This document shows, piece after piece, positions 5,511 to 44,568 of a DNA stretch of 44,810 bases. The notes under the pieces were generated by a model, which was not told the DNA's origin, ran no database searches, and worked only from the letters and a program-made list of their open reading frames with translations. Position 1 is the stretch's first letter, and every line of letters begins with the position of its first letter. The DNA is from an uncultured Lachnospiraceae bacterium (lineage in GTDB: Bacteria > Bacillota > Clostridia > Lachnospirales > Lachnospiraceae), in assembly GCA_946616835.1 (NCBI GenBank), contig CAMOJK010000010.1, positions 1-44,810 on the forward strand, read 5' to 3'. Both the position numbers and the translations under genes were made by a program.

Positions 5511-5534
5511 AAAATTATCAGTATTTAATAACAC

Positions 5535-8076: not shown

Positions 8077-8107
8077 ATATTATTCCTCTGTAGGGATCTG
8101 CTTTTCC

Positions 8108-8145: not shown

Positions 8146-9338
8146 AGCACATCAAAATACAGCTGCATCAGTTCGTTTGCATCCATAAGCACCGGCACGG
8201 GATATACGGGATTGCCTTCCTTTGCCGCTTTCTTTGCAAGCATGTAAATATCTTCTTTTTTAAGTTCAGCCACAGTCTCCGGTATTCCTATCTCACGCCA
8301 GAGTGTCTTGAGCGCTGCCTTAAAATTAGCCGCGGCCTCTGCGTCACTCATTTCCTTATCTGCCACTCCGGCTGCTATAGCCAGTGCATGAAGCTGCGGG
8401 TTGATCTTGGGGCCATAGGCATCCAGCACATAAGGAAGCAGTATTCCGCAGGTCATGCCGTGAGGCACATTGTACTTTCCGCTCAGTGAATGTGATACGG
8501 CATGAGCATAACCCACATAGGAAACCGTAAAGGCAGAGCCTGCAAGATATGATGCTCTTGCCATGGCACGCCTTGCCTTCATGTCGTTACCGTTTTTATA
8601 TGCCCTCTTAAGATATTTAAAAGAAAGCCTGACAGCCCTCAGCGCTTCCCTTCTGGTAAGCTTTGTAGTGGAATTTCCGATATATGCCTCAACGGCGTGG
8701 ACTATGACATCAGCTCCGGTCCCTGCAGTCACGACAGGAGGAACCGTTCTGGTATTTTCAGGATCAAGCAGGGCCGCATCCGGTATAAGAGGAAAATCCA
8801 TAAGAGCATACTTATGTCCCGTCTCCGTATCCTGTACAATAGCAGCTACCGTAGTTTCACTTCCTGTACCGGCAGTTGTAGGAACAGCGATGGTAAGTGG
8901 AGTTTTGGCCCATATCCTGAGCATGCCTCCCAGTTTTTCCAGATCTGCATCCGGTCTGGCTATGAGCGCACCCACGGCCTTTGCGGTATCCATGGAAGAG
9001 CCGCCTCCAAACCCTATCAATGCGTCACAACCGTTTGCAATGTATATTCCCCGTGCTTCCTCTACCTGGGCGACAGTGGGATTGGGCGTTACCTTATCAT
9101 ATACGGTCAGCTTTATTCCATTCTCTTTGATCAGGCTTTCAAGATGCGCTGTTATTCCCAGTCCCCTTATGGCACTGTCTGTAACCAGCAGTACCGATGT
9201 CCTGCCATGCTTTTTCAGATAATCCGGTACCTGGTCAGCTTTATTCAGCACATCAGGATTTCTGTATGGCAGGAAAGGTATAGCCACTTTGAACCCGAAC
9301 TGGAATATCCTGCAATAGACTCTGCTTGCAATATTCAT
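8139..9338 (-). CDS. Iron-containing (group III) alcohol dehydrogenase
   Basis: NAD(P)-dependent oxidoreductase of the Fe-ADH family, interconverting alcohols and aldehydes in the cytosol. The dinucleotide-binding GGGSSMDTAKAVG lies near residue 101. The metal ligands are an aspartate and three histidines, seen in GADVIVHA, GYAHAVSHSL and NVPHGMTCG. The 399-residue length is normal. The start at 9338 has GAGGAG eight bases upstream; a longer frame reaches into the transporter gene and is rejected. It lies 70 bases after the GldFG-like gene and may be cotranscribed. The substrate (butanol, ethanol, propanediol or other) cannot be told from sequence. Confidence 0.93.
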   Translation of the reverse strand: MNIASRVYCRIFQFGFKVAIPFLPYRNPDVLNKADQVPDYLKKHGRTSVLLVTDSAIRGLGITAHLESLIKENGIKLTVYDKVTPNPTVAQVEEARGIYIANGCDALIGFGGGSSMDTAKAVGALIARPDADLEKLGGMLRIWAKTPLTIAVPTTAGTGSETTVAAIVQDTETGHKYALMDFPLIPDAALLDPENTRTVPPVVTAGTGADVIVHAVEAYIGNSTTKLTRREALRAVRLSFKYLKRAYKNGNDMKARRAMARASYLAGSAFTVSYVGYAHAVSHSLSGKYNVPHGMTCGILLPYVLDAYGPKINPQLHALAIAAGVADKEMSDAEAAANFKAALKTLWREIGIPETVAELKKEDIYMLAKKAAKEGNPVYPVPVLMDANELMQLYFDVLE

Positions 9339-9408
9339 GAATTTAACTCCTCGGATAGTTTTAACATCAGCATTATCCCTGATTTTCAGCATTTGAACAA
9401 GGTATAAC

Positions 9409-11580
9409 TCACCCTCTCCTTCTGTAGATCCATATTCCCAGACCGCCAAAGAATATTACTGCGATTACTATAAACTGTGTAAGCAGTATGTTCCTCGCCT
9501 GTGCAGGTGTAAAATATATCGTAGCCACGGAATCATGCGGAGGAATGGTCACAATATCATTTTCAAGCTCCACTAACTGTCCAAGGGTATTCCCGAAAAG
9601 CTTCTGGTTCATACCCCCAGTGTAATAGTCCGTTGCCTCGGAAAACATTCCATATGTTCCATAGGGATCCATAAATACTCCCGTATATATTACAGCCTTT
9701 GAAACATTTCCATCCTCAAGTATCTTCTGCGCACGGAGAGCTATCACGAACTGTCCCTCCTCATCACCTGCTGCCTTATCAAGATTTTCCGCAGTCCGGT
9801 AATCCGTCTTTATATACGCTTTTTCAGATGTGCGGAGAAGCGGTGAATAGGAAATATTATCGTCCGGATCATCCGTATAGACTAACGCCTGTGAGAAAGG
9901 TGACATCACATGCTCACCATCACCGTCTGCAACATTTTCCGTTATATCATCATAGCAGAGCTCCGGATAAAGATATACCGGCACCTGAAGCTGATAAAAA
10001 TACATAGATTCATCTGACTCTACTACCAGTCCGGGCTTTTTCTCAACGCCGTAATAAGAAAGCAGTTCATTAAAATTATTCATGTCCGGTGTTGCATAGA
10101 ATGTCATTATCAATATGTTGCCGCCCTTGTCCAGATATTCTTTTATCAGAGAAACTTCCTCCGCCATATAATCTGACGCGGGAGCGTTTATGATAAGCAG
10201 ATCGCAGTCTTCCGGAATCGCAGAAGCTGTCTTAAGGTCTATGTCATGCAGATTCATACTGTAATTTGTAAATACCCTGTCATAGCTCTGATCAAACCTC
10301 ATCTCATCATGACCAGTCACACAGTATGCATTAAGAAGCTTGTCTGCTGAAAGCATTACATACTGGATAGCCCCCGACACCTGGCCTTCTATATCGTAGC
10401 TTGAAATATAAGGCTGATAATTTGAGTCATATTCCATGTTGACCATATCATAAAAATCAACAGCCCTGCTCCTGCCGTTTGTCTTGTCCACAACGATCAC
10501 GCTGTTGTACGAAAGCTCATTATCGGTATACTGGGCAGCAAACTGCGGATCAATACTGATATCAACATAACTGAGCGTCACATGCTTGCCTGTTCCGGCA
10601 TAAAGCTTAAGTATCCGCTCTATATCAACATCTTTTTCACCCTCAGTATCATTTTCCTTTGCCAGATAATATATTGCCACATCATCCGTCATATTATTCA
10701 GTATGTCCTTACTATCCTGCGAAAGGGAATACATTCCGGTTCCGCTGACATCAACATTTTTTACATTCTCAGGAAACTCAGCCGAAGAAACATTTATAGC
10801 AATAACAGCCGCAACACAGATAATTATAAGGCTTCCGGAATAAATGCCTGCACTGTACATTCCCTTTTTCAGGCTGTATCTCCTCTTCTCGATCACCTGA
10901 GTACAGAGAAAAAGAAAGAGAAGTGTAAATGAAACAAAATATATCACAGCCGTCCAGTCAAGAGTTCCCATCATAAGATCAGCCAGCCTGTCCGTAAAGT
11001 TGTAGGTGGAATCCAGAAACTTCCTAAGCCATTCAATAGGAATATGTGTATATGCTCCCGGCAGTAATATTCCCAAAAAACTTGCTATCATTGAAAACAC
11101 TGCAGCGATTATCGGATTTTCTACCAGAGATGACATGAACATACACAGTGAAATGATCATCATTCCGTAGAGGATAAAAGCTAATACACAGGTATAGGAC
11201 CATTTATATGAAACATTTCCGTATTTGCCAAGCACAAGAGGCAGAAAGCAGGACAGTCCCGCAGGTATCAGCAGCACGGACACAAGCGCCATAAATTTAC
11301 CCATTACTATCCCGGCAATGGATACGGGTGCGGTAAGTATCATCTGGTCTGTCTTGCTGCGTCTCTCCTCCGCAAAAGTCCTCATACAAAGAATTGGCAT
11401 CGAAAAAGTAATACCGTACAGACACGCCCCGTAAAGTGCGGCATTTATCACTGAATAACCGTAAACCAGGTTATTCACCGCAAAAAATATCATCATAAAT
11501 ACAAGTATTACGGTAACAGCAAGCGGTCCTATAAAGCTATGCAGATAAGATTTGAAATCTCTTTTAAATATCGCAAGCAT
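9409..11580 (-). CDS. GldF-GldG fusion: ABC-2 permease plus auxiliary domain
   Basis: Membrane component of a Gld-type ABC exporter. Residues 1-240 form an ABC-2 permease of six helices with the family pattern FAEERRSKTDQMILTAPVS after helix 2. Another helix near 245-262 leads to an extracellular GldG/ABC_transp_aux domain (about 265-690) containing VTGHDEMRF and a DLLIINAPASD strand. A last helix (FIVIAVIFFGGLGIW) is followed by RRRG. GldF and GldG are separate proteins in Bacteroidetes; in Firmicutes the fused form is common. Its ATG overlaps the ATPase stop by one base (TAATG), so the two are coupled. The transported substrate is unknown. Confidence 0.88.
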   Translation of the reverse strand: MLAIFKRDFKSYLHSFIGPLAVTVILVFMMIFFAVNNLVYGYSVINAALYGACLYGITFSMPILCMRTFAEERRSKTDQMILTAPVSIAGIVMGKFMALVSVLLIPAGLSCFLPLVLGKYGNVSYKWSYTCVLAFILYGMMIISLCMFMSSLVENPIIAAVFSMIASFLGILLPGAYTHIPIEWLRKFLDSTYNFTDRLADLMMGTLDWTAVIYFVSFTLLFLFLCTQVIEKRRYSLKKGMYSAGIYSGSLIIICVAAVIAINVSSAEFPENVKNVDVSGTGMYSLSQDSKDILNNMTDDVAIYYLAKENDTEGEKDVDIERILKLYAGTGKHVTLSYVDISIDPQFAAQYTDNELSYNSVIVVDKTNGRSRAVDFYDMVNMEYDSNYQPYISSYDIEGQVSGAIQYVMLSADKLLNAYCVTGHDEMRFDQSYDRVFTNYSMNLHDIDLKTASAIPEDCDLLIINAPASDYMAEEVSLIKEYLDKGGNILIMTFYATPDMNNFNELLSYYGVEKKPGLVVESDESMYFYQLQVPVYLYPELCYDDITENVADGDGEHVMSPFSQALVYTDDPDDNISYSPLLRTSEKAYIKTDYRTAENLDKAAGDEEGQFVIALRAQKILEDGNVSKAVIYTGVFMDPYGTYGMFSEATDYYTGGMNQKLFGNTLGQLVELENDIVTIPPHDSVATIYFTPAQARNILLTQFIVIAVIFFGGLGIWIYRRRG

Positions 11581-15810: not shown

Positions 15811-16620
15811 TTATGAGTCTGAGCACTCATTTCTAAAAGGTAATTCCTCAAGTGTCTTATAATTTGCCTGCAGATACTCAAGTACCGGATTGCTGTGGTC
15901 GCTTACATAATACTCAAGGAAATCCATATCTTCCTTGGCATCCACATCAATACCGCCTTCAACGACATATCCTATCATCCAGTCGCCGTGCATCAGGTCG
16001 TTGTTTATTATAAATTCAGTCCTTAGCACATCTACATAGCTGTCAGGAATATAAACATCCGGAAAAGCCTGCCTGGGGTTATTGGCCTCGTCCAGTGTCA
16101 GCCCCGGTTTAATGCTCTTATAATATCCGTCTTCCCTCAGGTTGAACCATTTATACGGGGTATTTGGTGCCAGATGTGCCGAGCGCAGGCTGGTGGCTGA
16201 CGGATCGGCTTTCATCCTTTTTACCGCTTCACTTACTATTTCCGGTTTTCTTAAGGGATATGTGGGACGCATATGCATAAAGTATTCCGGCAGGACTCCT
16301 TCATTCTCAGCAAGCCAGGTAATGGCATGTTCCATAAACTCTATATCAGTGGATTTGTCGCCGGATATCTCGGCAGGTCTTAAGAAAGGCGCCTCCGCAC
16401 CGTAATACTTTCCTATCTCCGCATAGTACTCCGAATCCGTGGATATAAGCACTCTGGATGCCTCACCGCACATATTTGTCGCAGCAGCCGTAAATGCAAT
16501 AAGAGGATACCCCTTGAGACATCTTATATTCTTATTCTTTACACCTTTGCTGCCGGACCTGGCCGGTATGATAGCATACACGCTGTCTTTCTTTATCAGA
16601 TCAATGTAGTCTTTATTCAT
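15811..16620 (-). CDS. CMP-sugar synthetase, NeuA/PtmB-like cytidylyltransferase
   Basis: Activates a nonulosonic acid with CTP to give a CMP-sugar. The N-terminal nucleotide loop IPARSGSKGVKNKNIR (about residues 18-33) is diagnostic. LISTDSEYY, HMRPTYPLR and the late GIDVDAKEDMDFLEYY (metal-binding aspartates) are also in place. The length of 269 fits the short bacterial class lacking a C-terminal phosphatase-like domain. AGAGGT precedes the ATG. It follows the MocA-like gene by 17 bases. Context with a NeuB-like synthase supports an acidic nine-carbon or related sugar rather than Kdo. Confidence 0.87.
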   Translation of the reverse strand: MNKDYIDLIKKDSVYAIIPARSGSKGVKNKNIRCLKGYPLIAFTAAATNMCGEASRVLISTDSEYYAEIGKYYGAEAPFLRPAEISGDKSTDIEFMEHAITWLAENEGVLPEYFMHMRPTYPLRKPEIVSEAVKRMKADPSATSLRSAHLAPNTPYKWFNLREDGYYKSIKPGLTLDEANNPRQAFPDVYIPDSYVDVLRTEFIINNDLMHGDWMIGYVVEGGIDVDAKEDMDFLEYYVSDHSNPVLEYLQANYKTLEELPFRNECSDS

Positions 16621-16637: not shown

Positions 16638-17669
16638 TTACTGCAGCTTTACTACTTCCCCTGTCTCCAGGGATCCCTTAACGGCCAGCGCGATCTTTAA
16701 GCTGGCAACTCCCTCCCTTACAGGAATCGTGGTCATTTTCTTTTCACGAAGAGCCTCCAGAAAAGCTTTCATCTCATCATAGAACATATTGTTCCTGTCG
16801 AAATCAAATACTTCACCACGCGTAAGCTCCCCAGCTCTATTGTATACGGATATCCTGTTCTGAAGCAGGTCAAAAAGGATCATTCCGTCAGTTCCTACGA
16901 TCTTGCAGTGCCGTGTAGCCGGGCGCTGTACAAAATCCTCATGCACATGCACAGGTATCTTATACCCCTCATGTTCCACTTTCATAAGTATATCGGCGGT
17001 ATCTTCCACATCTATCTCGAAGTCCGCAAGAGTCCCTCCCACGGCATACACACTCTCCGGCATTCCGAAGAATGAATACAGATAATCAAGCTCGTGGATC
17101 TGAGTCATTACCACGCCGCCCCCTAAGCTTTTCTTTGCAGTATAGGAGGTACGGTAATCCTCATATTTGTGCATACCAGAAACATCCTCACCCAGCTCGG
17201 CAAATACTGAAGTCACTCTGCCAATGGCACGGCTTTCAAGGAGTTCTCTTGCAGCCATTACGCAGGGATGAAATCTCTGCTGGTATCCGGCAAAGTTGAC
17301 CAGTCCCTTTTGTTCTATCTCGTTAAGAAGCTCATCCATTCCTTCCATTGAGGATGAAACCGGCTTTTCACAGAAAATATTTACATTGTGGTCAGCCGCC
17401 GCCTTCATCACTTCAAAGTGGCATGCAGATGGATTGCAAATAAAAACAGCATCGATATTCTTATCCCATGCTGCATCAAGTGTGGGCACATACTCAATGC
17501 CATACCGTTCTTCCAGATCATCGCCTATGACATTAAGCTTATTGTCTAGTACCCTGTTATTTCTGAGAACCCTGTATGCGTATATGTGATCATCAGATCC
17601 CTTCAACACATACAGATTCCTTAAATGTCTCTGACCTATGGAACCAAGTCCCGTAAACAGATAATTCAT
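16638..17669 (-). CDS. Gfo/Idh/MocA-family sugar dehydrogenase
   Basis: NAD(P)-dependent oxidoreductase. The N-terminal Rossmann motif GLGSIGQRHLRN is followed by FICNPSACHFEV and the family lysine in FCEKPVSS (about residue 97). The C-terminal alpha/beta domain includes GGGVVMTQIHELDYL. Related PtmF-type enzymes are found in legionaminate loci. The start ATG overlaps the NeuB-like stop by one base (TAATG), with GAGAGGAAACTA upstream, so the two are coupled. It is likely to oxidise or reduce the sugar used by its neighbours; the exact substrate is not visible. Confidence 0.9.
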   Translation of the reverse strand: MNYLFTGLGSIGQRHLRNLYVLKGSDDHIYAYRVLRNNRVLDNKLNVIGDDLEERYGIEYVPTLDAAWDKNIDAVFICNPSACHFEVMKAAADHNVNIFCEKPVSSSMEGMDELLNEIEQKGLVNFAGYQQRFHPCVMAARELLESRAIGRVTSVFAELGEDVSGMHKYEDYRTSYTAKKSLGGGVVMTQIHELDYLYSFFGMPESVYAVGGTLADFEIDVEDTADILMKVEHEGYKIPVHVHEDFVQRPATRHCKIVGTDGMILFDLLQNRISVYNRAGELTRGEVFDFDRNNMFYDEMKAFLEALREKKMTTIPVREGVASLKIALAVKGSLETGEVVKLQ

Positions 17670-18550
17670 TAGTTTCCTCTCAGTTCTCTTCTCTTTTTCA
17701 ATTCCGTGTCATACAGACGCTTCTCACCGTCTCCCAGTGTCTCAAGTGCGGAGGTGATACGCTTTTTAAGAAGTGCCATTGCCTGCACTTCCAGGGATGC
17801 CTTCTGGTCCGAACCCCACATATCATGTGAAAGAGTGACATGCCTCTCAATAAGACATGCCCCCAGCACAGCGGCTATCACGGAAGGCTCAAGATTAGCC
17901 TCATGTCCGCTGTATCCTACCAGGCAATCATATCTCTCACGCATTGTATTAATGAGTCTTAAGTTCAGTTCATTATTAGGGCTGGGGTAGCTGCTGTTGG
18001 TATGGCATATTATATAGTCACCGTTTGAATAATCCTCAAGCCAGCCGATGGTGGTGTCCATTTCATCCAGCTCTGACATACCTTCAGATAATACAACCGG
18101 CTTGCCGGATTCACAGGCCTTTTTTATTATCTCCTTATTGGTATTGAGTGCCGAAGGGATTTTTATAAAAGGCACATCATACTCAAGAAGGAATTCAAGA
18201 CTCGGTATATCCCATGGGCTTGCAGTCCAGTCAAGCGGCTTTGATCTGCAATACTCGTCTATCACATCGTATTCTTCTTTTTCGAACTCAATGTGTTTCT
18301 TGTAATCAATGTAAGCCATGGTTCCCCAGGGTGTATCCCTTGGCACCTGTTTCTGCGCCTCGGGTACTGCGATATCCGGAGTACGCTTCTGGTATTTCAC
18401 GCAGTCCCATTCGCAGGCAAAAGCCGCATCCATAAGTTTTTTGGCAACCTGAATATCACCATTATGATTGATGCCAATTTCAGCTATCATATATGGAGTG
18501 CTGCTGTCGCTTACTATATGATTTCCAAGTTTTATGGTTTTGTTTGCCAT
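17669..18550 (-). CDS. NeuB-family nonulosonate synthase lacking the SAF domain
   Basis: Condenses phosphoenolpyruvate with a sugar aldehyde. The TIM-barrel signatures are present: IAEIGINHNGD, VKYQKRTP, TASPWD, KIPSALNTN, VVLSEGMS, CHTNSSYP, GYSGHE and an ERHVTLSHDMWGSDQKASLE segment matching the usual EKHFTLD...DHKASLEP. The protein ends at 293 residues, about 50-60 short of classical NeuB/LegI/PseI, because the C-terminal SAF (antifreeze-like) domain that closes the partner's active site is missing. The start at 18550 has GAGGAAGG upstream; GTG 18574 is an alternative. It is the first gene of the four-gene sugar set, 48 bases after the hydratase gene. Confidence 0.88.
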   Translation of the reverse strand: MANKTIKLGNHIVSDSSTPYMIAEIGINHNGDIQVAKKLMDAAFACEWDCVKYQKRTPDIAVPEAQKQVPRDTPWGTMAYIDYKKHIEFEKEEYDVIDEYCRSKPLDWTASPWDIPSLEFLLEYDVPFIKIPSALNTNKEIIKKACESGKPVVLSEGMSELDEMDTTIGWLEDYSNGDYIICHTNSSYPSPNNELNLRLINTMRERYDCLVGYSGHEANLEPSVIAAVLGACLIERHVTLSHDMWGSDQKASLEVQAMALLKKRITSALETLGDGEKRLYDTELKKRRELRGN

Positions 18551-18598
18551 ACACCTCTGTCCTTCCTCAGACACCCATGCCTGAACGACAAATCTCTT

Positions 18599-26272: not shown

Positions 26273-26374
26273 ATATTTCTGCAAGCAGGATTATACCGCC
26301 GCATATTGCGAAACGACTGAGCAGAATCGGATGTGAAGTTGTTTTGCAGTAAACATGGAGTTTGGAATATATTT

Positions 26375-28111
26375 ATGTTTGTGAAAAAGAAAAATAAAAA
26401 ATTCCAAATACTATACGATCTGTATTTTCAGCTTGTCACGGTCAACATTCTGATCAATATGATTCAACCCTGCAATCAGCTGGTAGATACAATTATTACC
26501 GGAAAATCACTGGGTGCAGAGGCTCTTAAAGTATATGCTCTTTTTCTCCCTATGAACTCCTTTTTGCTGGCAATAAGCTGTGTATTATCAAAGGGTGCAC
26601 AGGTATCAACCTCTCACTCAATTGGAAAAGGAGATTTCAAAGTCTCCAACTGCATTGTAAGTACTACATTGTTCTTAAGTGCATTTTGTTCTCTTATATT
26701 TTCGTTACTCTGTTTTATACTTTCTGAGAAAATTGCCTTTATACTGGGGAGCGGTTCTCTAACAGACCAGGTATCCGGTTATATCCGCACCTACTCCATA
26801 GGCATAGCACCGGCAATTCTCCTGGATATCTTCATGTGCCTTATGCAGCTTGAAGGCAGAAAGAAGCTTGTAATTATAGGTTCTCTCTGTGTTTTTGCCG
26901 TCAACGCATTAGGAGATTTAGCCAATATATTCATCTTTAAAAAAGGCGTTGCAGGTATGGCATTTGCCACTTCTGCCTCCAACATTACAGGCTGTTTGTT
27001 ATTAGGTCTTTTCTTTATCAAAAGGTCCTCACTTTTTAATATCAGTATAAAGAATTTCAACGGGCTATATCTACGCCAAATCCTGAAGAACGGCTTTCCT
27101 TCTCTGGCATATTATGGCAGTCTTGTGATCCGTACAACATTTATGAATATTCTTATTCTTAATACCTTCGGCAAGGATGTACTCGTACCGATGCTGGTAT
27201 TTACTAATTTTGGAACATTTGCAGATGTGCTGATAGGAGGACATGGCGATTCTGTACTCGTTATGAGCGGAATATTGTATGGCGAAAAAGATAAAAAAGG
27301 AGCAGCTTCTTTACTCAAGATTTCAATTATATCCGGCACGATCATGATGTTTGCAGCAGGAGCTTTAACCGCATACTTCTCTATGCCGTTAGCAAAGATC
27401 TTTTTAGAAGAAAACGATATGGCTTTCGCTCCTCAATCTGCCAGAGCTTTAGTCCTGGCAGCCTTTTATCTTGTACCGGACATCATATCATGCATCGAAA
27501 AAAAATATATCCAGGGAATCGGAAACGGAACATATGTTGCGGTTACAAACTTTTTATACAATGTTCCGATCGTGTGTGCTTTGACCATCGTTCTTATCAA
27601 TACAATCGGGACAGACAGTTTGTTCCTTTCATTTACCGGCTGTTATCTGGTAGCCGCCATAGTAAACACCATATACATAATCTTCTTCTCATTTAAAAGA
27701 TTTGAATCCGAGGATTACAAGATCATATCCTTCACGGTAAACGATCTTAAAGAATGCATCAATGTATCCGAGCATATACACAACTATTGCCGTGAGAATG
27801 GATTAGATAATAAAAAGAGCTATCTTATCAGTCTGTTCACTGAAGAAATATGTAAAAATATCATTATCCATGGATTTGATAAAAAGCGCAGCAATTCTAT
27901 TGTTATAAAGCTTCTCCTATTAAATGATAAGACCACACTTTGCATCAAGGATAACTGTGTGCTTTTTGATCCGGTACATTATTATGAAACCATGAAAGAA
28001 GTTCCCGGGGGTACGGCAGACGGTATCGGTATTAAACTGCTGATGAAGATGTCGAAGAATGTCAAATATACTACCGGCTTTAAACTGAATAATCTTATGA
28101 TTGAGGTATGA
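26375..28111 (+). CDS. MATE-family transporter fused to a GHKL (RsbW-like) ATPase domain
   Basis: The first about 440 residues form a MATE-type multidrug/metabolite exporter of about 12 helices (QPCNQLVDTIITGKSLGAEAL at the start, typical of the superfamily). The last about 130 residues are a soluble domain of the RsbW/SpoIIAB HATPase_c_2 type. It has an N-box TEEICKNIIIHG (Glu, Asn and His retained), a G1-type segment IKDNCVLFDP, and a G2-type GGTADGIGIKLL followed by LNNLMIEV. The nucleotide site therefore looks usable. The start is uncertain: ATG 26375 (GGAG 12 bases upstream) or GTG 26333. It is the first gene of an operon with two redox flavoproteins. A second fusion of the same design lies at 39240-40964. 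Confidence 0.85.
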   Translation: MFVKKKNKKFQILYDLYFQLVTVNILINMIQPCNQLVDTIITGKSLGAEALKVYALFLPMNSFLLAISCVLSKGAQVSTSHSIGKGDFKVSNCIVSTTLFLSAFCSLIFSLLCFILSEKIAFILGSGSLTDQVSGYIRTYSIGIAPAILLDIFMCLMQLEGRKKLVIIGSLCVFAVNALGDLANIFIFKKGVAGMAFATSASNITGCLLLGLFFIKRSSLFNISIKNFNGLYLRQILKNGFPSLAYYGSLVIRTTFMNILILNTFGKDVLVPMLVFTNFGTFADVLIGGHGDSVLVMSGILYGEKDKKGAASLLKISIISGTIMMFAAGALTAYFSMPLAKIFLEENDMAFAPQSARALVLAAFYLVPDIISCIEKKYIQGIGNGTYVAVTNFLYNVPIVCALTIVLINTIGTDSLFLSFTGCYLVAAIVNTIYIIFFSFKRFESEDYKIISFTVNDLKECINVSEHIHNYCRENGLDNKKSYLISLFTEEICKNIIIHGFDKKRSNSIVIKLLLLNDKTTLCIKDNCVLFDPVHYYETMKEVPGGTADGIGIKLLMKMSKNVKYTTGFKLNNLMIEV

Positions 28112-28185: not shown

Positions 28186-29169
28186 ATGAGAATCTATACC
28201 AAATGCTCCAACTACGCATCAGATACCTGCCCCTGTGTTCTGGCAGAGAGCGGTCACTGTATTGTATGCTCCATGTGCAGAGGGGAAGATTTTTGCGACT
28301 GTTCCGATACTTCAGGATTTTGTGTGATGCAGGAACTGTATAATAATGGCGGCAAGGCAAGAGACCAGCATCACATGATGAAATGCACAGTGACATATGA
28401 GACAGTATTTGATGACACCATCAAGCTTATCAGACTGAATATCCCTGATGGAGAGATCCGCAGTTTCACTCAGCTTGGATCCTTTGTGTTTATCAGAGTG
28501 CTTGAGAATACATTCTACGATGTTCCCATTTCAGTCTTGTATGAAGAGATCGACCTCGATTCCATAGAATTAATGATACAGCTTCAGGGAATCAAAACCA
28601 AATGCTTTAAAAACCTGAAAAAGGGTGATACCGTTTTTCTCCGCGGACCGTATCTCAACGGCATTCAGGGACTGAAGGCTTTATCATCACTTCATAATAG
28701 CAAATCCCTTGTCATATGCCGCGGGATCGGACTATTTCCTTCTCTCTATCCAATTTCGCAGATGATAAAGAATAATAATGATGTAAAAATCTATCTGGAT
28801 CAGGGAACATTCAGCAAAACACTGCTTCGGGCAGCGAAAGACCTGTATGAATTGGACATTGAAGAAATATCAATTATGGATCCGGGCGGCAGGATTTCAT
28901 CACAAATGTATGCGATCATCGATGATGCAATAAAGCAGGATGTGAAGCTGATCCATTTCGGAACTTCGGATCATGTGATGAAACAGCTGATTGACCATGT
29001 CGAAGAAAAATCAGGCAGGAATGTGGCGCTTTCCTGCATCAATAATTCCCACATGTGCTGTGGTGAAGGGATATGCGGCGCATGTACCAGAAATATCAAC
29101 TCACAAAAGATCGTACATTTATGTAAAGAGCAAATGGATGTGTATGAATACGGAAAAATCCTTATTTAA
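28186..29169 (+). CDS. PyrK-like iron-sulfur flavoprotein reductase with Cys-rich N-terminus
   Basis: Electron-transfer subunit of the ferredoxin-reductase fold. The FAD-domain strand VPISVLYEE, the NAD-type loop CRGIGLFPSLYPI and the C-terminal [2Fe-2S] pattern CGEGICGAC...HLCKEQ match PyrK/SudB proteins. Unusually, the first 46 residues carry nine cysteines (7, 15, 17, 25, 28, 31, 37, 39, 46) that could hold one or two further metal clusters. AAAGGAG precedes the ATG. It lies 74 bases after the MATE fusion and 23 bases before the FAD oxidoreductase, its likely redox partner. The electron acceptor is unknown; there is no pyrD nearby. Confidence 0.82.
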   Translation: MRIYTKCSNYASDTCPCVLAESGHCIVCSMCRGEDFCDCSDTSGFCVMQELYNNGGKARDQHHMMKCTVTYETVFDDTIKLIRLNIPDGEIRSFTQLGSFVFIRVLENTFYDVPISVLYEEIDLDSIELMIQLQGIKTKCFKNLKKGDTVFLRGPYLNGIQGLKALSSLHNSKSLVICRGIGLFPSLYPISQMIKNNNDVKIYLDQGTFSKTLLRAAKDLYELDIEEISIMDPGGRISSQMYAIIDDAIKQDVKLIHFGTSDHVMKQLIDHVEEKSGRNVALSCINNSHMCCGEGICGACTRNINSQKIVHLCKEQMDVYEYGKILI

Positions 29170-29192
29170 AATGGAAAGGAGCCGGGAATAAA

Positions 29193-30515
29193 ATGAGCAG
29201 AATAATTGTTACAGGCGGTGGATGGTCAGGTGTTTCCGCAGCACTTAGTGCCAGAAAAGCCGGAGCGGAAGTAGTCCTTTTGGAAAAGACCGATCTTGTT
29301 CTGGGTGCCGGAAATGTTGGAGGCATATTTAGAAACAACGGCCGTTTTACTGCTGCCGAAGAGATGAAATTTCTTGGAGCCGGAGAACTGTTTGACATCA
29401 TGGATAAATGTGCCGTTCATGTAAATGTCAGCTTCCCGGGACATGAACATGCCTCTCTTTACGATGTAAATAAAGTAGAACCCTGCGCAAAAGAACTGCT
29501 GGGAGAATTCGGTATTGAACTCATGACCGAATCCCATGTCATGGATATAGTTAAGGTAAATGATAATGTGGAAGCGGTCGTCCTTGATGATGGCACAAAA
29601 ATTGAAGGTGACGTATTTATTGACACCACAGGGTCTTCCGGACCGATGGGAAACTGTCTGAAATACGGTCATGGATGTTCCATGTGCATCCAAAGATGTC
29701 CTACATTTGGTCCGAGAGTGAGCCTCACGGCCAAATACGGAATAAAAGATCTGAGAGGACGGCGCTCAGACGGAACACCGGGAGTTTTTTCGGGTGCATG
29801 CAAGATTGAAAAAAAGACGCTTCGAGAAGATATCCGGGATGAACTAAATGAGAAGGGGGTTGTCATACTTCCTGTTCCCAAAGAAGATGTCAATTACGAT
29901 AAGCTGGGGCAGAAAGCCTGCAGACAGTATGCGCTCAAAGAATACAGCGAAAATGTTATCATTCTGGATACCGGGGCAGCTAAGTTAATGACAAGCTATT
30001 ATCCACTGGATAAACTAAGAAAAATCCCGGGACTTGAGCAGGCGGAATATATCGATCCCTACAGCGCCGGAAGGGGTAATTCCATCAGATATCTGGCTGT
30101 AGCCCCGTGCGAAGATACCATGCATGTTATTGGTGCGACAAATCTTTTCTGTGGCGGTGAGAAGGGAGCTCCACTTATCGGGCATACCGAAGCTGTAGTG
30201 ACAGGAGCTCTGGCAGGATACAACACCGTAAAGTACGCAGAAAAAGAAGAGCTGCTCATCCTTCCGGATACACTGGCAGTCGGAAATATCATAAGCTACT
30301 CCCATAAGCAGTTTGTACGGGAGCAGATCTATAATGAAAGATATACTTTCGCAGGGGGTGTTTTCTTCAAGCGAATGAAAGAACTTGGATTATATTCAAC
30401 AGATACAGATGATATCGAAAACAGGGTCACCGCCGCGGGACTTAAAGGGATATTTGATATTTCTCCAAAAACGCCCGTCCCTCCTCATAGCCGCGTTTCA
30501 GGCGGTCAGCTATGA
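29193..30515 (+). CDS. FAD-dependent oxidoreductase with CxxCxxxC motif
   Basis: The N-terminal dinucleotide motif GGGWSGVSAAL and the LLEKTD acidic end of strand 2 bind FAD. A segment GDVFIDTTGS (about residue 140) is the usual second FAD contact. It is followed by CSMCIQRC, four cysteines that could form an iron-sulfur or disulfide centre. The C-terminal part NLFCGGEKGAPLIGHTEA resembles the FAD-dependent oxidoreductase superfamily including MnmG-like ends. GGAGCC lies upstream of the ATG. Its last 74 bases overlap the convergent patatin gene. Together with the PyrK-like protein it probably forms a NAD(P)H-linked redox pair acting on an unknown substrate. Confidence 0.82.
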   Translation: MSRIIVTGGGWSGVSAALSARKAGAEVVLLEKTDLVLGAGNVGGIFRNNGRFTAAEEMKFLGAGELFDIMDKCAVHVNVSFPGHEHASLYDVNKVEPCAKELLGEFGIELMTESHVMDIVKVNDNVEAVVLDDGTKIEGDVFIDTTGSSGPMGNCLKYGHGCSMCIQRCPTFGPRVSLTAKYGIKDLRGRRSDGTPGVFSGACKIEKKTLREDIRDELNEKGVVILPVPKEDVNYDKLGQKACRQYALKEYSENVIILDTGAAKLMTSYYPLDKLRKIPGLEQAEYIDPYSAGRGNSIRYLAVAPCEDTMHVIGATNLFCGGEKGAPLIGHTEAVVTGALAGYNTVKYAEKEELLILPDTLAVGNIISYSHKQFVREQIYNERYTFAGGVFFKRMKELGLYSTDTDDIENRVTAAGLKGIFDISPKTPVPPHSRVSGGQL

Positions 30516-37880: not shown

Positions 37881-39161
37881 TTATTTCACAGGTATTTCAT
37901 GCTTTGGCAGTCTCTTGGGAAACGGACCCTCAATCGTAGACGGAATACCAACCTTCTCAAGTTCTTCCCGGAAGAGATTTACGTACTTATCTGTTTTTAT
38001 AAGCTGCATGAAGCCGACATAAATCTTATCTGCCATGGCGGTAATCTCTATCGTAAAATGGCCTTCGATAACAAAAACAAAAAACTCAACATAATCCGCC
38101 AGTTCACCCCAATCCATCAGCCCCGTATAATTGGCAACAAAGCTTCCATGCTGTGCATCCTTTCCGGTGGCAAGGCTGTGTTTTTCCATATACTTCCTTT
38201 TGGCCTTAAGGCCGTGCTGTTTGTCGATCTCTTCATACAGTTCAAACAGTTCTTTTACCTGTGCATGGCTGACAGTCGGGTCTGTCTGAAGAATAATCTG
38301 TCCTCTGGTTCTTGTTCCCAGTTTTTCCAGATCACCTTTTAAACTTTCTCTGTCATAGTCCACATACACATGGCTTAAAAAATCACAATGTGTATTTGGA
38401 AGCCCGACACTCTCTCGCGGATTATGCGCCGCCTCTCCCACAATAACCCTGTCTTTCTCGGGAAACACCCTGTCTAAAGTCCTTGCAAACATAATGAAGA
38501 ATAAAGAAAGCACACTAGAGTCATTCATTTTCGAGACTTTCAGAAGGTCCTGCTGATTGACGGTAATGACCATATAATTCGGATCTCTTTTTATCGGAAC
38601 AAATACACTCGTAAGGTAATCCATGCCAAGAACCGGAGCTTTTTTAAATTTTCTTTTATAGATTGGCTCTTCCGTTGTCAGCATATCCATTGTGGGTTCC
38701 TCAGTCTCACCCGGAAGAAAGTCACTGTCCGTTTTTCTGATTTCCGGTGCCAGGGGCTCCACATTGTATTTTTCTTTTACATACTCATATACATTTGTCA
38801 TAACCCACGGCTGAAAGCCTCTTCCGCCGCACATGGCATGGCTTATGTTGAAAAAGATATCCTTTCCAGCGCAGTCCACAAAAAGCAGATGATCGTTTAT
38901 GCTCTTGCTTCCAATCATCGGCAGTTTTTCGACCGTAGGCATCACAACAATCTTCTTATCGTTCGGAACGAGAATATACCCTCCATCCTCATCAACAGCC
39001 ACTCTGACAGCAAAGTAAGGATATCGCTTAATCGCTGCGTTAACTGCTTTATCCAGTATGTTTATATCGACTTCATCCTTCATTCTGACATGAATGCGGA
39101 CAGTATGTGCAAAATATTTCTCGCTCTGATATAGTCTGTATGTATCAATGCTGTATTTCAC
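37881..39161 (-). CDS. Stand-alone condensation-type acyltransferase
   Basis: Member of the chloramphenicol-acetyltransferase/condensation fold (also labelled alcohol acetyltransferase-like). The active-site histidine is in FNISHAMCGGRGF; the usual HHxxxDG is altered, with serine for the first histidine and glycine for the aspartate. A second-half motif with NPRESVGLPNTHCDFLSHVYVDYD resembles the latch region. There is no adenylation or carrier domain. The start is a GTG with GGGAGGG upstream. As the last gene of the deoC-NRPS-MATE operon it is the likely releasing or tailoring acyltransferase. Activity with the altered motif is plausible but unproven. Confidence 0.78.
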   Translation of the reverse strand: MKYSIDTYRLYQSEKYFAHTVRIHVRMKDEVDINILDKAVNAAIKRYPYFAVRVAVDEDGGYILVPNDKKIVVMPTVEKLPMIGSKSINDHLLFVDCAGKDIFFNISHAMCGGRGFQPWVMTNVYEYVKEKYNVEPLAPEIRKTDSDFLPGETEEPTMDMLTTEEPIYKRKFKKAPVLGMDYLTSVFVPIKRDPNYMVITVNQQDLLKVSKMNDSSVLSLFFIMFARTLDRVFPEKDRVIVGEAAHNPRESVGLPNTHCDFLSHVYVDYDRESLKGDLEKLGTRTRGQIILQTDPTVSHAQVKELFELYEEIDKQHGLKAKRKYMEKHSLATGKDAQHGSFVANYTGLMDWGELADYVEFFVFVIEGHFTIEITAMADKIYVGFMQLIKTDKYVNLFREELEKVGIPSTIEGPFPKRLPKHEIPVK

Positions 39162-39239: not shown

Positions 39240-40964
39240 TTATTCCTCATTTTTATTGAAGCGGATCATATTGCGGTTATAACCTGTAGTAGTCTGATAT
39301 GCCTTTTCTTTGTGTGATTCCATCAGACCGCTCAGGATGAAACCACTCAGGCCGTCAATCTTTAAGTCAGGATCGGTAATATCAAATACCTTTCCCGCAT
39401 CGCGTTCTATCAACAGAACAGATCCCTCATCAAAAAGCAGCGATATTTCCGCCAATACAGGGCTTTTACTGTCTTTATTCTTTTCAATAATAGTCAGACC
39501 GATCTCTTCGGTAAACAACGCTGCCCTCATAGACTGTTTTTTTGAGTATCCCCTCTCGTTCATAGTATTCTGCACCTTTTCGGAAAGCTCGGAACACATC
39601 TCAGGAGTAAAAACACCGTCAAACACAACTATATCCGCATGCTTTGGAACCAGCAGACCAGGAAAGCTCGCTTTACCATATCGCCACCTGATGTATATCG
39701 AGGTAATGATAAGGGCAAGTACAGGAGACAGCGCAAACGCTGCCCACAACCCTGTCTGTCCCAATATAAACGATCCCACAACCGGCAGCACGGAATAAAG
39801 CACTCCATCCTTAATTAATGTTACTCCTACTGCTAATCCCACCCGGTCGATCAGCATATAATATGAAGTCATCAGAGATACCATACTGCAGAAGATCAAT
39901 CCGAATGATACGATCCTGACAGCCACAACAGTAGGTTCCAGAGCTGCTCCTTCCCTGATGCCAAACAAACCACAGAACTGTCTGGTCAACAGTAATATCA
40001 GCAGACCTGCTATCAAGCCTTCAGCAACCGCAGCCATCTTTGCCGCATTCATCACACGTTTTATCATGACATTGTTACCCTCGCCCAGATACGTGCCAAG
40101 CAAAGGCTGAATTGCCAGACCGACTCCGTCCATAACAACGCTGAACTCCAGAAGACTGATAACAACAGCAAGAGTGATAAGTCCGATTTCGCCATAACGG
40201 GCTGATACATGCGCTATCAGGACATAATCCGCAATAGCCCAGCAGATATAAATAACCGCATCAACAGCGCTGAATCTTACTGCCTGAAGGATATCACTGA
40301 TGGATAAGTGCCATGTAAACTTAAGCGTATTGCATTTTCGGAAGAAATGCACAATAACAGGTATCAGACCGAAAACATTGCCTGCTATTGTGCCCCAAAT
40401 GATTCCCTGCATTCCGAAAAATCTGACAAGTACCAGTGAAAGAGCGATGTTGCCTGCTATCTGAAGAACATATGATATGTTAGTACAGGTTTCATCACCA
40501 TCTGTGTAGACCATATTTCCTAAATAGGAATTCAGTATGGTGAATACAGCACAAAGCGGAGTCCACTTATAGTATTCCGAAGCGAGCTCATATATTTCGC
40601 CCGATACACCGTTTATATCAAAATACAGATCTTTCCCCAGCCAAAGTATAACAGAACTAAACAACGCTACCGCCACATTCAGGATCAGTCCCTGTCCGAA
40701 CAGCTCATCAGCATGCTTCTTGTTCATTGCTCCGATGGATCTGCTGTATAGGATACCTGTACCTATCGAGGTAATATTAGCAAAGAACGTTGTTATTCCG
40801 GTAACCGGCGTTATCGCATTTATTGCAGCAACACCGTTTTCGCCGATAAACAATCCTGCGATAATGCTGTCACATAACAGCATCACATAGATTATCGCCA
40901 TCGTAAAAGTACCGGACAACAACATGGATCGGAATTTAATCTCGCAGAATCCACGTTTTCTCAT
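39240..40964 (-). CDS. MATE-family transporter with degenerate GHKL-like C-terminal domain
   Basis: About 440 residues form a MATE exporter of about 12 helices (LLCDSIIAGLFIGENGVAAIN near the start). The last about 125 residues resemble the same RsbW-like ATPase domain as the protein at 26375-28111. The correspondence is TEEIGLTIIEKN for the N-box (Glu kept, Asn replaced by Thr), RDAGKVFDITD for G1, DGLSGFILSGLM for the glycine-rich G2, and NRNMIRFN at the end. The loss of Asn and of the GIG glycines suggests that it no longer binds Mg-ATP. Its ATG overlaps the NRPS stop (ATGA), with AGGAGG ten bases upstream. It probably exports, or senses, the peptide product. Confidence 0.85.
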   Translation of the reverse strand: MRKRGFCEIKFRSMLLSGTFTMAIIYVMLLCDSIIAGLFIGENGVAAINAITPVTGITTFFANITSIGTGILYSRSIGAMNKKHADELFGQGLILNVAVALFSSVILWLGKDLYFDINGVSGEIYELASEYYKWTPLCAVFTILNSYLGNMVYTDGDETCTNISYVLQIAGNIALSLVLVRFFGMQGIIWGTIAGNVFGLIPVIVHFFRKCNTLKFTWHLSISDILQAVRFSAVDAVIYICWAIADYVLIAHVSARYGEIGLITLAVVISLLEFSVVMDGVGLAIQPLLGTYLGEGNNVMIKRVMNAAKMAAVAEGLIAGLLILLLTRQFCGLFGIREGAALEPTVVAVRIVSFGLIFCSMVSLMTSYYMLIDRVGLAVGVTLIKDGVLYSVLPVVGSFILGQTGLWAAFALSPVLALIITSIYIRWRYGKASFPGLLVPKHADIVVFDGVFTPEMCSELSEKVQNTMNERGYSKKQSMRAALFTEEIGLTIIEKNKDSKSPVLAEISLLFDEGSVLLIERDAGKVFDITDPDLKIDGLSGFILSGLMESHKEKAYQTTTGYNRNMIRFNKNEE

Positions 40965-43891
40965 ATATTAGTGACCTCCTTAACACAAATATCCGGACAA
41001 TCCCTGTAATTTATGAGTTTCCCCGCAATAGTTCTGATCAAAGCGCCATATTGTTCAATTGTTTCCGGCTTATATAAACTGTCTGCATAGTCAAGATAAA
41101 GACCGGGTTCATCTCCTCTTGTCGTAATCTCAACATCAAGAGACGTCTGAGATGCCCTGTTTTTTATCTCAAGCTCTATCTCGTCGAACTGATGCTGCCA
41201 ACCCTCCGAGAGAGCCCTTACATCATCCTGAAGCATGAAACAAATACAGTCATCCTTCACCGGAGACACATAAGTTGAACTGACAAATGAGCAGGAATTG
41301 TATTTTATGGAATTATTCAACTGTTCTTTTATATCGGTCAGCATTTCTTTCATCGTAAGATCATCTGTGACTGAAAGTGCCAGCGGCAAAGTGTAGAACA
41401 ACATGCCAATACTGTTCATGGAATTGAGGTCTTTTCTTCCGTTGTAGATCCAGGTGATCATGACATCGTCAGTGTTAGTTACGGCACTTAGTGCGAGAAG
41501 TCCGGCCATAAGGAACAAACCGTTCCTTCCTATCCCGGTAGCAGCTTCAAATGCCATATAATCATCATCGGTAAAATGCAGGTCAATATCTATATCACTT
41601 GCACGATTTTCGTCATAAGCAAAATCATACGGAAGATTACGGATCCATTTCGTCCCTGTATAATGTTTTTCAAAATATGACTTTGCCTCATCATATAATG
41701 AACTGTTCAGCTCTTTCTCACGCTGTGCAATAACATAATAATAGTAATCAGGCTCAGGCTCCTTACCAGACAGACACTTTTGCAGATTACTCATAAACAG
41801 CCAGTAAGACGTACCATCAAAAATCAAATGGTGAACATCAAAGAATATGTAATTCCCGGACGGAGCACTGAAAACCCTGCTCCTCCATAGCAGGCAGTCA
41901 GTGACCTCACCGAATGGCTGCACCAGATTCCTGCGAATGTTCTCAAGTTCTTCGTCTGAAACCTTCTCCACAATGATTTCCCGGAACAACTCGGGAGCAT
42001 ACCTTTGCTTATACTCTCCGTTCTCATAATAGAATATGGTCATGAGAGCAGAGTGATTTAGTATGGTTTTATTAATTGCTGCTGCAAGGTCTTTGGCATC
42101 AACATCATTAAATCTGCACAGGCCCGGATTGTTATACATAACAGTATCAGGCGTATACAGCTCATAGTTCAATATATACTGCTGCTCCACAGTCAATTGA
42201 TGAGGCCTTGACATAGATTCTGAATTGACCTGTGCAGGAGACTCATGTGTCCGGCAGGTTTTGTTCAAATAATGTCTGACAATGCCCGAAACAGTACATC
42301 CAAAATAGATGTCTTCAAAGGTAAGCCCGCTTAATCCGGTCTCAACGATCAACTTCATTGAAGATAATGAATCTCCTCCAAGAAGGAAGAAATCATCATT
42401 TATCCCAACTTTCTTTATCCTCAGCACTTTCTGCATTGCATCGCATATTATCTTCTCTGTCTCATTGGTTGGCGGAGCATACTCTTTCATGCAGTCAGTA
42501 ACAGAAGGTTTGGGAAGTGCATTTCTGTTCATCTTACCGTTATGCAGACGCGGGATCGAATCAACCTTTATAAAATATGAAGGCAGCATGTAATAGGGAA
42601 GAATCCTGCCAAGTTTCTCACGCAGCTCAGCTATTCCGATTTCAACATTCCCCAGATGATATGCGCAAAGATGCATTCCATTTTTGTCATTAAAACTTCT
42701 GACCGCTGTCCATTCAAGATCCGTAACACGCTTAATAGCCTCTTCGACTTCCGTCGGTTCAACTCTTTTACCATTGATCTTTATTGTATCGCTGATCCTT
42801 CCAATTATCTGATACTGCCCATCACTCATTTGTCTGGCAAGATCTCCACTGTGGAAAACACCGTTTATAAAATTCTCTTCAGTCTGATTGATATACCCCC
42901 TCGTAAACGGAGCATCAAAACAAAGCTCACCTGCCTCGCCTTTTTCGACCGGATTGCCATCTTCATCCAAAAGATATACACCGACATCATACTGAGGCAG
43001 TCCGACAGGTGCTGTGTCATTAGGCTTATCCAGCACAGATACCAATAACCCGCAGGCCGTCTCGCTGCTGCAATATCCATTAAACACTGTCATTTCGGAA
43101 GGATCCTTCCAGATACCATGTGCCGGTTCAGAAGAAAGAATGACCTTTTTAAGGTAAGGACCGAAGTCTTTTTGTATCCTGAACAGCGATGGTGGGAAAA
43201 ATGCCAGAGTTACTTTGTTCTCCACTAAAAACCTCATTATTTTCAGTGGATCTTTTGACACAGAATAAGGAGCAATCAAAAGCTTCGTCCCTATCATGAG
43301 GCTAATGATCATAAACATGATCGAAGCTACAAAGTTCATCGGGAAGTACAATAAAATAATGTCGCTCCTCTTACTTATGGAAACGCCATTCCAACGGTAT
43401 GATGCAAATGTGATCGGTATCCTGCCGTATTCATGCAAAACACCTTTCGGATTTCCGCTGGTCCCTGATGTATATACCGCAAATGCCGCTGCATGAGGAT
43501 CCAAAGGTTCATGTCCTTCAAGCGGTTCACAGCACCGTATCTCCTTCCATGCCTTTTCATCAAGGACAAAAGCACAGTTGCAGTCTTTTTCAATATATTC
43601 GATCCTTTCAACAGGATCATGATCCTCGATGATCACCGCCGCAGCACCTGTTTTCCAAATACCCCAAAGAGCTACAGCAATAGCAACTCCTCTGGGAAGG
43701 AGTATGCATATCATATCCTCTTTGCCGAATCCCTTGTTCTTAAGATACCTGTAAACCTTTGCGGAACTGCGGTCCAATTCCTGTACTGTCATATCGGTTT
43801 CTGCCGGACCTTCACTTAGGATCACATGATCCGGACACTCTCTTAACAGCGCATCATATCTTTCAAATATGTTAGTCTCCTCAGCTTTCAT
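40961..43891 (-). CDS. Nonribosomal peptide synthetase, A-T-C
   Basis: Single-module synthetase of 976 residues. The adenylation domain (about 1-475) has core A3 YTSGTSGNPKGV, A5 GYCSSETACG, A7 FHSGDLA, A8 GRISDTIKINGKRVEPTE and A10 NGKMNRNALPKP (catalytic lysine). The carrier domain has DDFFLLGGDSLSS with the phosphopantetheine serine. The condensation domain (about 575-970) has HHLIFDG. There is no thioesterase, reductase or epimerase domain. In the A4 region the usual FDxS aspartate that grips the alpha-amino group is not seen (PMNFVASIMF), suggesting a non-standard acyl substrate. The start is ATG 43891, overlapping the deoC stop by four bases; GTG 43909 is less likely. Confidence 0.92.
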   Translation of the reverse strand: MKAEETNIFERYDALLRECPDHVILSEGPAETDMTVQELDRSSAKVYRYLKNKGFGKEDMICILLPRGVAIAVALWGIWKTGAAAVIIEDHDPVERIEYIEKDCNCAFVLDEKAWKEIRCCEPLEGHEPLDPHAAAFAVYTSGTSGNPKGVLHEYGRIPITFASYRWNGVSISKRSDIILLYFPMNFVASIMFMIISLMIGTKLLIAPYSVSKDPLKIMRFLVENKVTLAFFPPSLFRIQKDFGPYLKKVILSSEPAHGIWKDPSEMTVFNGYCSSETACGLLVSVLDKPNDTAPVGLPQYDVGVYLLDEDGNPVEKGEAGELCFDAPFTRGYINQTEENFINGVFHSGDLARQMSDGQYQIIGRISDTIKINGKRVEPTEVEEAIKRVTDLEWTAVRSFNDKNGMHLCAYHLGNVEIGIAELREKLGRILPYYMLPSYFIKVDSIPRLHNGKMNRNALPKPSVTDCMKEYAPPTNETEKIICDAMQKVLRIKKVGINDDFFLLGGDSLSSMKLIVETGLSGLTFEDIYFGCTVSGIVRHYLNKTCRTHESPAQVNSESMSRPHQLTVEQQYILNYELYTPDTVMYNNPGLCRFNDVDAKDLAAAINKTILNHSALMTIFYYENGEYKQRYAPELFREIIVEKVSDEELENIRRNLVQPFGEVTDCLLWRSRVFSAPSGNYIFFDVHHLIFDGTSYWLFMSNLQKCLSGKEPEPDYYYYVIAQREKELNSSLYDEAKSYFEKHYTGTKWIRNLPYDFAYDENRASDIDIDLHFTDDDYMAFEAATGIGRNGLFLMAGLLALSAVTNTDDVMITWIYNGRKDLNSMNSIGMLFYTLPLALSVTDDLTMKEMLTDIKEQLNNSIKYNSCSFVSSTYVSPVKDDCICFMLQDDVRALSEGWQHQFDEIELEIKNRASQTSLDVEITTRGDEPGLYLDYADSLYKPETIEQYGALIRTIAGKLINYRDCPDICVKEVTNI

Positions 43892-44568
43892 AAGCAGTAA
43901 ATCTCCCACAAAAGCGGAGCTACGGCAGAAGATCCAATCCTGTCTGCACCGGAATCAACCATAGCCACGGCATCTTCAATGGTGCGGATCCCGCCGGCTG
44001 CCTTTATCTTCACATCAGGACCGATATTTTCCTTAAAAAGCTTTATATCATCAATGACTGCTCCGGCAGTACCGAATCCGGTGGAGGTTTTGATATAGTC
44101 TGCACCTGTGTCCGTCACTATATGGCAAAGTTCTGTCTTTTCCTTTTCATTCAGATAGCAGGTTTCCACAATGACCTTGAGTATTTTATTTGCAGTTACT
44201 TTCCTCATAGCACTGATCTCATTACTTACTGCATCGAAGTCACCGTTTTTTACATCAGTGACATTGATCACCATATCGATTTCATCAGCTCCCTGCATGA
44301 GGGCATTTTCTGTTTCGAACAGTTTAACCGCACCTGTTGAATATCCCAGAGGAAATCCGATGACCGTGCAGATTTTCAGCGTATCAGCGTAAGCTTCCTT
44401 AACTTTTTTTACATAACCGGGTGGTATGCAGACGGAAGCCGTCTTGTATAAAACAGCTTCATCGCAGAGGGACTTTATATCTTCCCATGTAGCAAAGGCT
44501 TTTAACTGGGTGTGGTCTATCCTACTCATAATGTCTATTGCTTTTTCTTTGGTAATTACATTTTCCAT
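43888..44568 (-). CDS. deoC: Deoxyribose-phosphate aldolase
   Basis: Class I aldolase cleaving 2-deoxyribose-5-phosphate into acetaldehyde and glyceraldehyde-3-phosphate. The Schiff-base lysine is Lys160 in YIKTSTGFG; Lys189 in KIKAAGGIR and Asp98 in DEIDMV complete the catalytic set. The 226-residue length is normal. GGGAGG precedes the ATG, and an extended -10 box lies at 44601-44609. Normally it belongs to nucleoside salvage operons, but no deoA, deoB or transporter is nearby. Instead it heads the NRPS operon, its stop overlapping the synthetase start (ATGA). Confidence 0.94.
   Translation of the reverse strand: MENVITKEKAIDIMSRIDHTQLKAFATWEDIKSLCDEAVLYKTASVCIPPGYVKKVKEAYADTLKICTVIGFPLGYSTGAVKLFETENALMQGADEIDMVINVTDVKNGDFDAVSNEISAMRKVTANKILKVIVETCYLNEKEKTELCHIVTDTGADYIKTSTGFGTAGAVIDDIKLFKENIGPDVKIKAAGGIRTIEDAVAMVDSGADRIGSSAVAPLLWEIYCL

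Follow-up and report, generated by a model that had tools for sequence, protein, structure and literature searches.

A MATE exporter with a predicted RsbW-like tail, and the linkage of such fusions to peptide synthetase and partner-switching genes

Bacterial partner switching, as in the SpoIIAB/SpoIIAA/SpoIIE and RsbW/RsbV/RsbU systems, is known mainly as a means of controlling sigma factors. Here we analysed a 44,810-nucleotide stretch from an uncultured Lachnospiraceae bacterium (GenBank assembly GCA_946616835.1, contig CAMOJK010000010.1, positions 1 to 44,810; hereafter, the window), in which the open reading frame (ORF) at 39240..40964, on the minus strand, encodes a 574 aa MATE exporter with a C-terminal domain of predicted RsbW/SpoIIAB fold, next to a gene for a nonribosomal peptide synthetase (NRPS). 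A first-pass annotation had read a MATE fusion at this position, and we confirmed that it is real. We propose, with confidence slightly better than even, that the tail serves for docking and gating, not for phosphorylation, and that it binds STAS partners, thereby coupling synthesis to export.

The locus resembles the SpoIIAB and RsbW systems in its RsbW-fold domain and, for part of the fusion class, in adjoining genes for a conserved-serine STAS protein and a SpoIIE-type phosphatase. Here, however, this domain forms the C-terminal part of a MATE exporter; among the recurring neighbours of the fusions no sigma factor was noticed (no sigma-factor profile was run), and the window exporter has lost the kinase Asn and has no STAS gene in the window. 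Excerpts of the literature describe that unphosphorylated STAS binds RsbW and that phosphorylation breaks the contact (PMC12826045), and that the output of SypA lies outside the known sigma factors (PMC8256260, PMC12826045). Both SypE/SypA, from Vibrio fischeri, and SiaABCD, from Pseudomonas, combine an RsbW-like, STAS and PP2C logic with an output beyond a known sigma factor, as here, the SiaB-SiaC comparison resting on structure 6kko. SiaABCD acts through SiaD, whereas the output here appears to be an exporter plus an NRPS enzyme, which also differs from SypE/SypA. In SulP/SLC26 proteins with a STAS domain, according to excerpts of PMC8256260, a membrane transporter likewise bears one half of a STAS/anti-sigma pair; the MATE transporter here bears instead the kinase-fold half, and in some relatives an enzyme bears the STAS half. 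An RsbW-like domain is also tied to small-molecule control in TciR (receiver plus RsbW-like domain), which excerpts of PMC12826045 connect with indigoidine control in Vogesella. TciR is a response regulator, however, and not a transporter fusion. Indigoidine is made by an NRPS, and the colibactin cluster reportedly encodes a MATE gene together with an NRPS, as at the window locus, although we know of no RsbW-like tail on the colibactin exporter. Titles and opening lines of abstracts in the openly licensed literature yielded no description of a MATE-RsbW or a STAS-condensation fusion. If our proposal is true, the same lock would couple the making of a metabolite to its export under phosphatase control; the linkage provides a genome-mining handle for amide metabolites of rumen and gut anaerobes, and the fusion class offers a direct test of RsbW-like domains without kinase residues.

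The exporter and its RsbW-like tail

The transporter part (residues 1-430; 39675..40964, minus strand) matched PF01554 (E 3.9e-19) above the gathering score (69.4 bits vs 24.9). The AlphaFold2 model of the full-length protein (predicted local distance difference test, pLDDT, 78) is helical to residue 429, with a mixed alpha/beta domain thereafter; the termini of MATE proteins are generally cytoplasmic. One named relative, WP_014430909.1 (29.7% identity over 98% of the query), is encoded on the Selenomonas ruminantium TAM6421 plasmid pSRC2; it carries the annotation of a plain MATE transporter, and the preceding gene that of the glutamate-cysteine ligase family.

Neither HATPase_c_2 nor any other Pfam profile matched the tail (residues 441-570; 39255..39644, minus strand) at E 1, and a sequence search of the altered domain against solved structures returned one chance-level row and nothing else. 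Profile-profile comparison linked it to intact HATPase_c_2 domains, and structure matches of the tail model include sigma-bound SpoIIAB (1l0o) and SiaB-SiaC (6kko). The model thus predicts an RsbW/SpoIIAB fold, and not the unrelated fold that would have told against the first-pass annotation. As had been read from the sequence, the N-box Asn and the GIG glycines are lost: the altered N-box, EEIGLT (residues 486-491; 39492..39509, minus strand), has Thr at the Asn position, and GIG aligns with GFI. A G1-box-like DxG and an FD are retained (residues 522-528; 39381..39401, minus strand), with D522, G524, F527 and D528 invariant in 12 aligned sequences, that of the window included.

The altered motifs are common to Clostridia relatives, many of them recorded from rumens, including Lachnospiraceae bacterium AB2028 and Ruminococcus flavefaciens MC2020 (49-97% identity in the domain), and the later part of the domain carries a branch signature of ERDxG, FDxTDP and TTGYNRN; L043, with a broken frame, was excluded from all alignments. 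The five comparisons with a domain dS below 1 gave a dN/dS of 0.00, 0.04, 0.10, 0.11 and 0.13 for the tail and, in the same pairs, 0.08-0.24 for the transporter part. Although the ATPase domain had been described as decayed, we conclude that it is not decaying, because relatives as distant as 49% identity keep the altered tail and purifying selection acts on it. That the N-box Asn and the GxG motif are missing might suggest a common drug exporter whose accessory domain is decaying and whose neighbours are there by chance; this is disfavoured by the selection on the tail, by the conservation of its altered form across genera and by a gene linkage, described below, that is absent from plain MATE loci, and we consider it very improbable.

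Neighbours of fusions and of plain MATE genes

We searched 298 genomes of the window's family with a profile of 30 diverse fusions; the earlier fusions behind the search profiles had been chosen by their sequence and not by their neighbours. At most four candidates per genome were scored, among the matches listed, so weaker fusions were missed and the fusion total is a lower bound. Regions were taken around the fusions listed, fusions from earlier searches and plain MATE genes. Counting as a fusion any MATE-labelled ORF of at least 540 aa, we obtained 100 fusion ORFs in 92 loci, near-identical pairs included and mostly from one family. Left out of the count were two that are cut by contig ends (L065 and L113), two below the length limit (L067, 529 aa; L076, 510 aa) and L109, hidden by a longer antisense ORF of the ORF caller. 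As controls we used 45 hand-picked plain MATE ORFs in 38 loci, with one per locus in combined tests. The Fisher tests disregard kinship, and neighbour counts vary between BLAST clustering and profiles (SpoIIE 33 vs 31, STAS 22 vs 20).

Within 6 kb of the 100 fusion ORFs we found SpoIIE in 31 cases, STAS in 20, free RsbW in 12 and an NRPS with adenylation and condensation domains (A+C NRPS) in 18, and none of these around the 45 control ORFs. ORFs with an adenylation (A) domain stood near 24 fusions and one control, and condensation-like ORFs near 19 fusions and two controls. In combined tests, at least one of SpoIIE, STAS and RsbW accompanied 36/100 fusions as compared with 0/38 control loci (P 1.6e-6), an A+C NRPS 18/100 compared with 0/38 (P 0.0033), and either context 51/100 compared with 0/38 (P 5e-10). 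Among representatives under 50% identity, partner-switch genes accompanied 26/70 fusions and 0/14 controls (P 0.004). The recurring association with biosynthetic genes anticipated by the first-pass annotation was thus observed, and of its unrecognised class of regulated exporters there stands a class of MATE-RsbW proteins linked to amide-forming biosynthesis and to partner-switching genes; decay, the pairing of forms and a tie between NRPS and altered tails do not stand.

A picked set of 25 fusion-bearing genomes contained 92 SpoIIE domains (mean 3.7), which as a rough background would place some 1.5% of randomly chosen genes no more than 6 kb from such a domain. The same genomes contained 52 condensation-domain matches, spread over 18 of them, and in six of the 25 (G040, G145, G245, G326, G386 and G426) every such match adjoins a fusion. 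Of the 18 NRPS genes, nine precede the fusion and nine follow it, 17 of them on the same strand as the fusion, and STAS and NRPS genes share one gene row with the fusion in L095, L096, L114, L128 and L137. SSAG or SSSG is present in 21/25 STAS-labelled ORFs near fusions, and neighbour clustering placed the LPG_synthase_C family near eight fusions and no control.

Other enzymes were seen in these neighbourhoods. GH3-type adenylating synthetases (e.g. L095 7123-8865), one of them confirmed by Pfam, occur near 8/100 fusions and no control. APH-like phosphotransferase domains adjoin fusions in L096 (5403-6407), L100, L107, L150 and L201 (Pfam-confirmed in L096 and L201), and in several loci such a domain is fused to STAS, in L107 and L201 also with an RsbW domain. 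In one plain MATE control, L181 6961-8334, a gap of 28 nt separates the MATE gene from an A-domain ORF of 871 aa, so that MATE genes without the RsbW-like tail can also adjoin adenylation genes.

In the window, the NRPS gene (40961..43909, minus strand) overlaps the exporter gene by 4 nt and encodes 982 aa with an adenylation, peptidyl carrier and condensation (A-PCP-C) layout (PF00501, PF00550 and PF00668 above cut-off). Motifs HHxxxDG and LGGDS are present by eye, and no Pfam match to a release domain (thioesterase, TE, or reductase, R) was found in the protein. A condensation/PapA5-like protein of 426 aa (37881..39161, minus strand) is encoded 78 nt downstream of the exporter; its NCBIfam PapA5 match (E 8.7e-6) is far under that model's cut-off, and an 87% homolog lies near an exporter relative in L041. 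The near-identical relatives L032 and L033 retain the NRPS-exporter pair, L033 without the PapA-like gene. In the relatives at 54-58% identity, none of the stretches examined, some of them short, carried a labelled A+C NRPS; FGGY kinase, HAD phosphatase, SpoIIE and STAS genes recur there, with a free RsbW also in L044. The A+C NRPSs of three further loci, L068, L079 and L080, show 29-30% identity to that of the window over about 970 residues and 35-44% among themselves; the exporters of these loci are 29-32% identical to the window exporter, and the NRPS gene stands directly before the fusion in L079, directly after it in L080 and one gene before it in L068. Because distant NRPSs adjoin distant fusions, NRPSs of this type and exporters of this type seem to have been associated for a long time.

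STAS-condensation enzymes and a possible synthesis-export coupling

When 378 genomes from the whole phylum were searched at E 1e-98, a threshold that retrieves strong fusions only, ten places were obtained beyond the window's family. Of these, nine loci, from eight genomes of six genera, were examined; the tenth (G663 C10), cut at a contig end, was excluded. STAS (free or fused) and/or SpoIIE were found at or near the fusion in all nine. In L200, L203, L205 and L206, the gene immediately before the exporter encodes a STAS domain fused to a condensation domain; in L204, an NRPS with adenylation, thiolation and condensation domains (A-T-C) stands between the STAS-condensation gene and the exporter. 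Pfam supported both parts of the five proteins (E of at most 7.3e-11 for STAS and of at most 7e-37 for Condensation), which share an invariant second Ser of SSAG and invariant His, Asp and Gly of the condensation motif, the first His of which is replaced by Tyr.

Across 189 genomes of the family of G888, 31 places with a STAS part were found in 28 genomes, five of them being the seeds. The gene after STAS-condensation in 28 loci (four seeds) was a MATE in 20, an NRPS A domain in seven and masked in one; the STAS-condensation genes of L223, L229 and L230 and, in L232, the gene that follows were hidden by the ORF caller. On re-examination of 19 non-seed loci with longer sequence, a MATE with an RsbW-like tail was present in all 18 readable loci, with the nineteenth ending inside the NRPS; the MATE frame is broken in L244. 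The MATE-RsbW gene follows either the STAS-condensation gene directly, mostly with a 4-nt overlap, or an A+C NRPS of about 1,200 aa, and the fullest gene order (L204, L252 and L253) is SpoIIE, STAS, STAS-condensation, NRPS, MATE-RsbW. By eye, the N-box Asn is absent in 16/18 of the tails linked to STAS-condensation genes, from related loci that are not independent events. Among 72,556 plasmid records, none matched a STAS-condensation query protein at 80% coverage. Three tandem stand-alone condensation-like genes lie directly before the MATE gene in L235, and stand-alone forms occur in many genomes of its genus.

Across the class, the tail may have partners of two kinds: STAS-condensation enzymes, and free STAS proteins whose state depends on SpoIIE phosphatases and RsbW-type kinases. 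On the simplest reading, where the enzyme bears STAS and the exporter RsbW, the two would form a plug between the enzyme that makes the amide bond and the transporter that exports the product; the contact would be switched by phosphorylating the serine of STAS, SpoIIE and an RsbW kinase would set the state of the plug, and tails without the N-box Asn would bind without phosphorylating. We tentatively suggest, at somewhat less than even odds, that the RsbW-STAS pair has been reused as such a phospho-switchable plug between STAS-condensation NRPS enzymes and MATE-RsbW exporters, in a synthesis-export complex of anaerobic Firmicutes, and that the window protein represents a kinase-dead branch in which the A-T-C NRPS-exporter pair is fixed. 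Because its kinase Asn is lost, the window tail would act either as a permanent dock or as one under control in trans, and would couple export to the A-T-C NRPS and perhaps also to the PapA-like protein; the window protein itself would still bind STAS and export the NRPS product.

Alternatively, the transporter could be a sensor, the MATE part sensing or moving a substrate and the tail holding or releasing a sigma factor or a STAS antagonist, so that the output would be transcription and not export. RsbW and SpoIIAB are established anti-sigma factors, sigma-bound SpoIIAB is among the fold matches of the tail, and free RsbW, STAS and SpoIIE genes lie beside some fusions. However, STAS-condensation enzymes are hard to square with transcription control, and the Asn is absent both in most tails linked to them and in 42/100 fusions, as scored from one column of one alignment. 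Furthermore, no sigma-factor-like family was noticed among the unlabelled neighbour families listed, again with no sigma-factor profile run; by eye, L198 and L199 have an ECF-like ORF several kilobases away. We consider a sensor role improbable.

The window branch could also carry the tail as a structural or ligand-binding appendage, such as a sensor of product or nucleotide, without a STAS partner, the linkage to partner switching being ancestral and lost here. This would agree with the lack of a STAS or SpoIIE ORF in the window and with the branch's own conserved signature. Yet the same-branch relatives L038 and L044 (54-58% identity) adjoin STAS and SpoIIE with the signature unchanged, and we regard an appendage as rather unlikely. 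For the window exporter to dock a STAS partner, this could possibly be provided in trans, because the other contigs of the genome contain seven STAS and three SpoIIE matches, among them those of a row on contig C35 (see below) and, on contig C58, a SpoIIE with a free RsbW and a STAS 6 kb further.

Several results weigh against a STAS-mediated coupling of synthesis to export. Among window ORFs of at least 70 aa, only the exporter and the second fusion described below matched STAS, SpoIIE or RsbW profiles; the genome's own row of fusion, STAS and SpoIIE is on a separate contig (C35), its STAS match having one internal TGA, and the PapA-like protein gave only a weak local match to the STAS-condensation profile (probability 3, E 0.015), too little to claim it as an ortholog. 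Loss of the N-box was not tied to a trans-encoded RsbW kinase (9 lost and 5 kept with one, 18 and 19 without; P 0.36). Neither context was found within 6 kb of 49/100 fusions, and among representatives under 50% identity the excess was not significant for NRPS (12/70 vs 0/14, P 0.2), STAS alone (14 vs 0, P 0.11) or free RsbW alone (10 vs 0, P 0.2). Control L181 and the two controls with a condensation-like ORF indicate that biosynthetic links are not exclusive to fusions. Finally, the model of the C-terminal domain is modest in confidence (pLDDT 67), and the binding, transport and product proposed here are predictions.

The second fusion of the window and further observations

The second MATE fusion (26333..28111, plus strand) has an intact HATPase_c_2 domain, as judged by Pfam and alignment, and retains the kinase motifs. 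The two window fusions align nearly end to end at 21% identity and are therefore distant relatives, not recent duplicates. Each had been placed beside its own small-molecule operon, but the intact copy adjoins a flavoprotein pair (28186..30515, plus strand; 28186-29169 and 29193-30515), with no clear biosynthetic cluster; homologs of the pair (45% and 67%) adjoin a sister fusion in L077. Nor do intact and altered forms tend to pair: 10/25 genomes with at least two counted fusions were mixed, as compared with a shuffle mean of 15.0 (P of at least the observed number, 0.99). An altered form as the NRPS-linked one was likewise rejected, since 11 of the 18 NRPS-linked fusions retain the N-box Asn and seven lack it. 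In the fusion tree, plain MATEs occupy three places, one of them the rooting tip, and support is weak at several deep nodes; the fusion may have arisen once or several times.

The 3-Mb genome G395 contains 24 SpoIIE domains and four intact fusions, and L034 holds two fusions of the window branch (658-2394 and 8001-9725, 56% and 79% identical to the window exporter), with HAD, FGGY, SpoIIE, APH and tyrosine-phosphatase genes between them.

Elsewhere in the window, three adjacent ORFs at 3776-8076 (566, 619 and 247 aa) have no Pfam match at E 0.001. A cytidylyltransferase and a NeuB-type synthase, at 15811-16620 and 17669-18574, suggest a nonulosonic-acid pathway.
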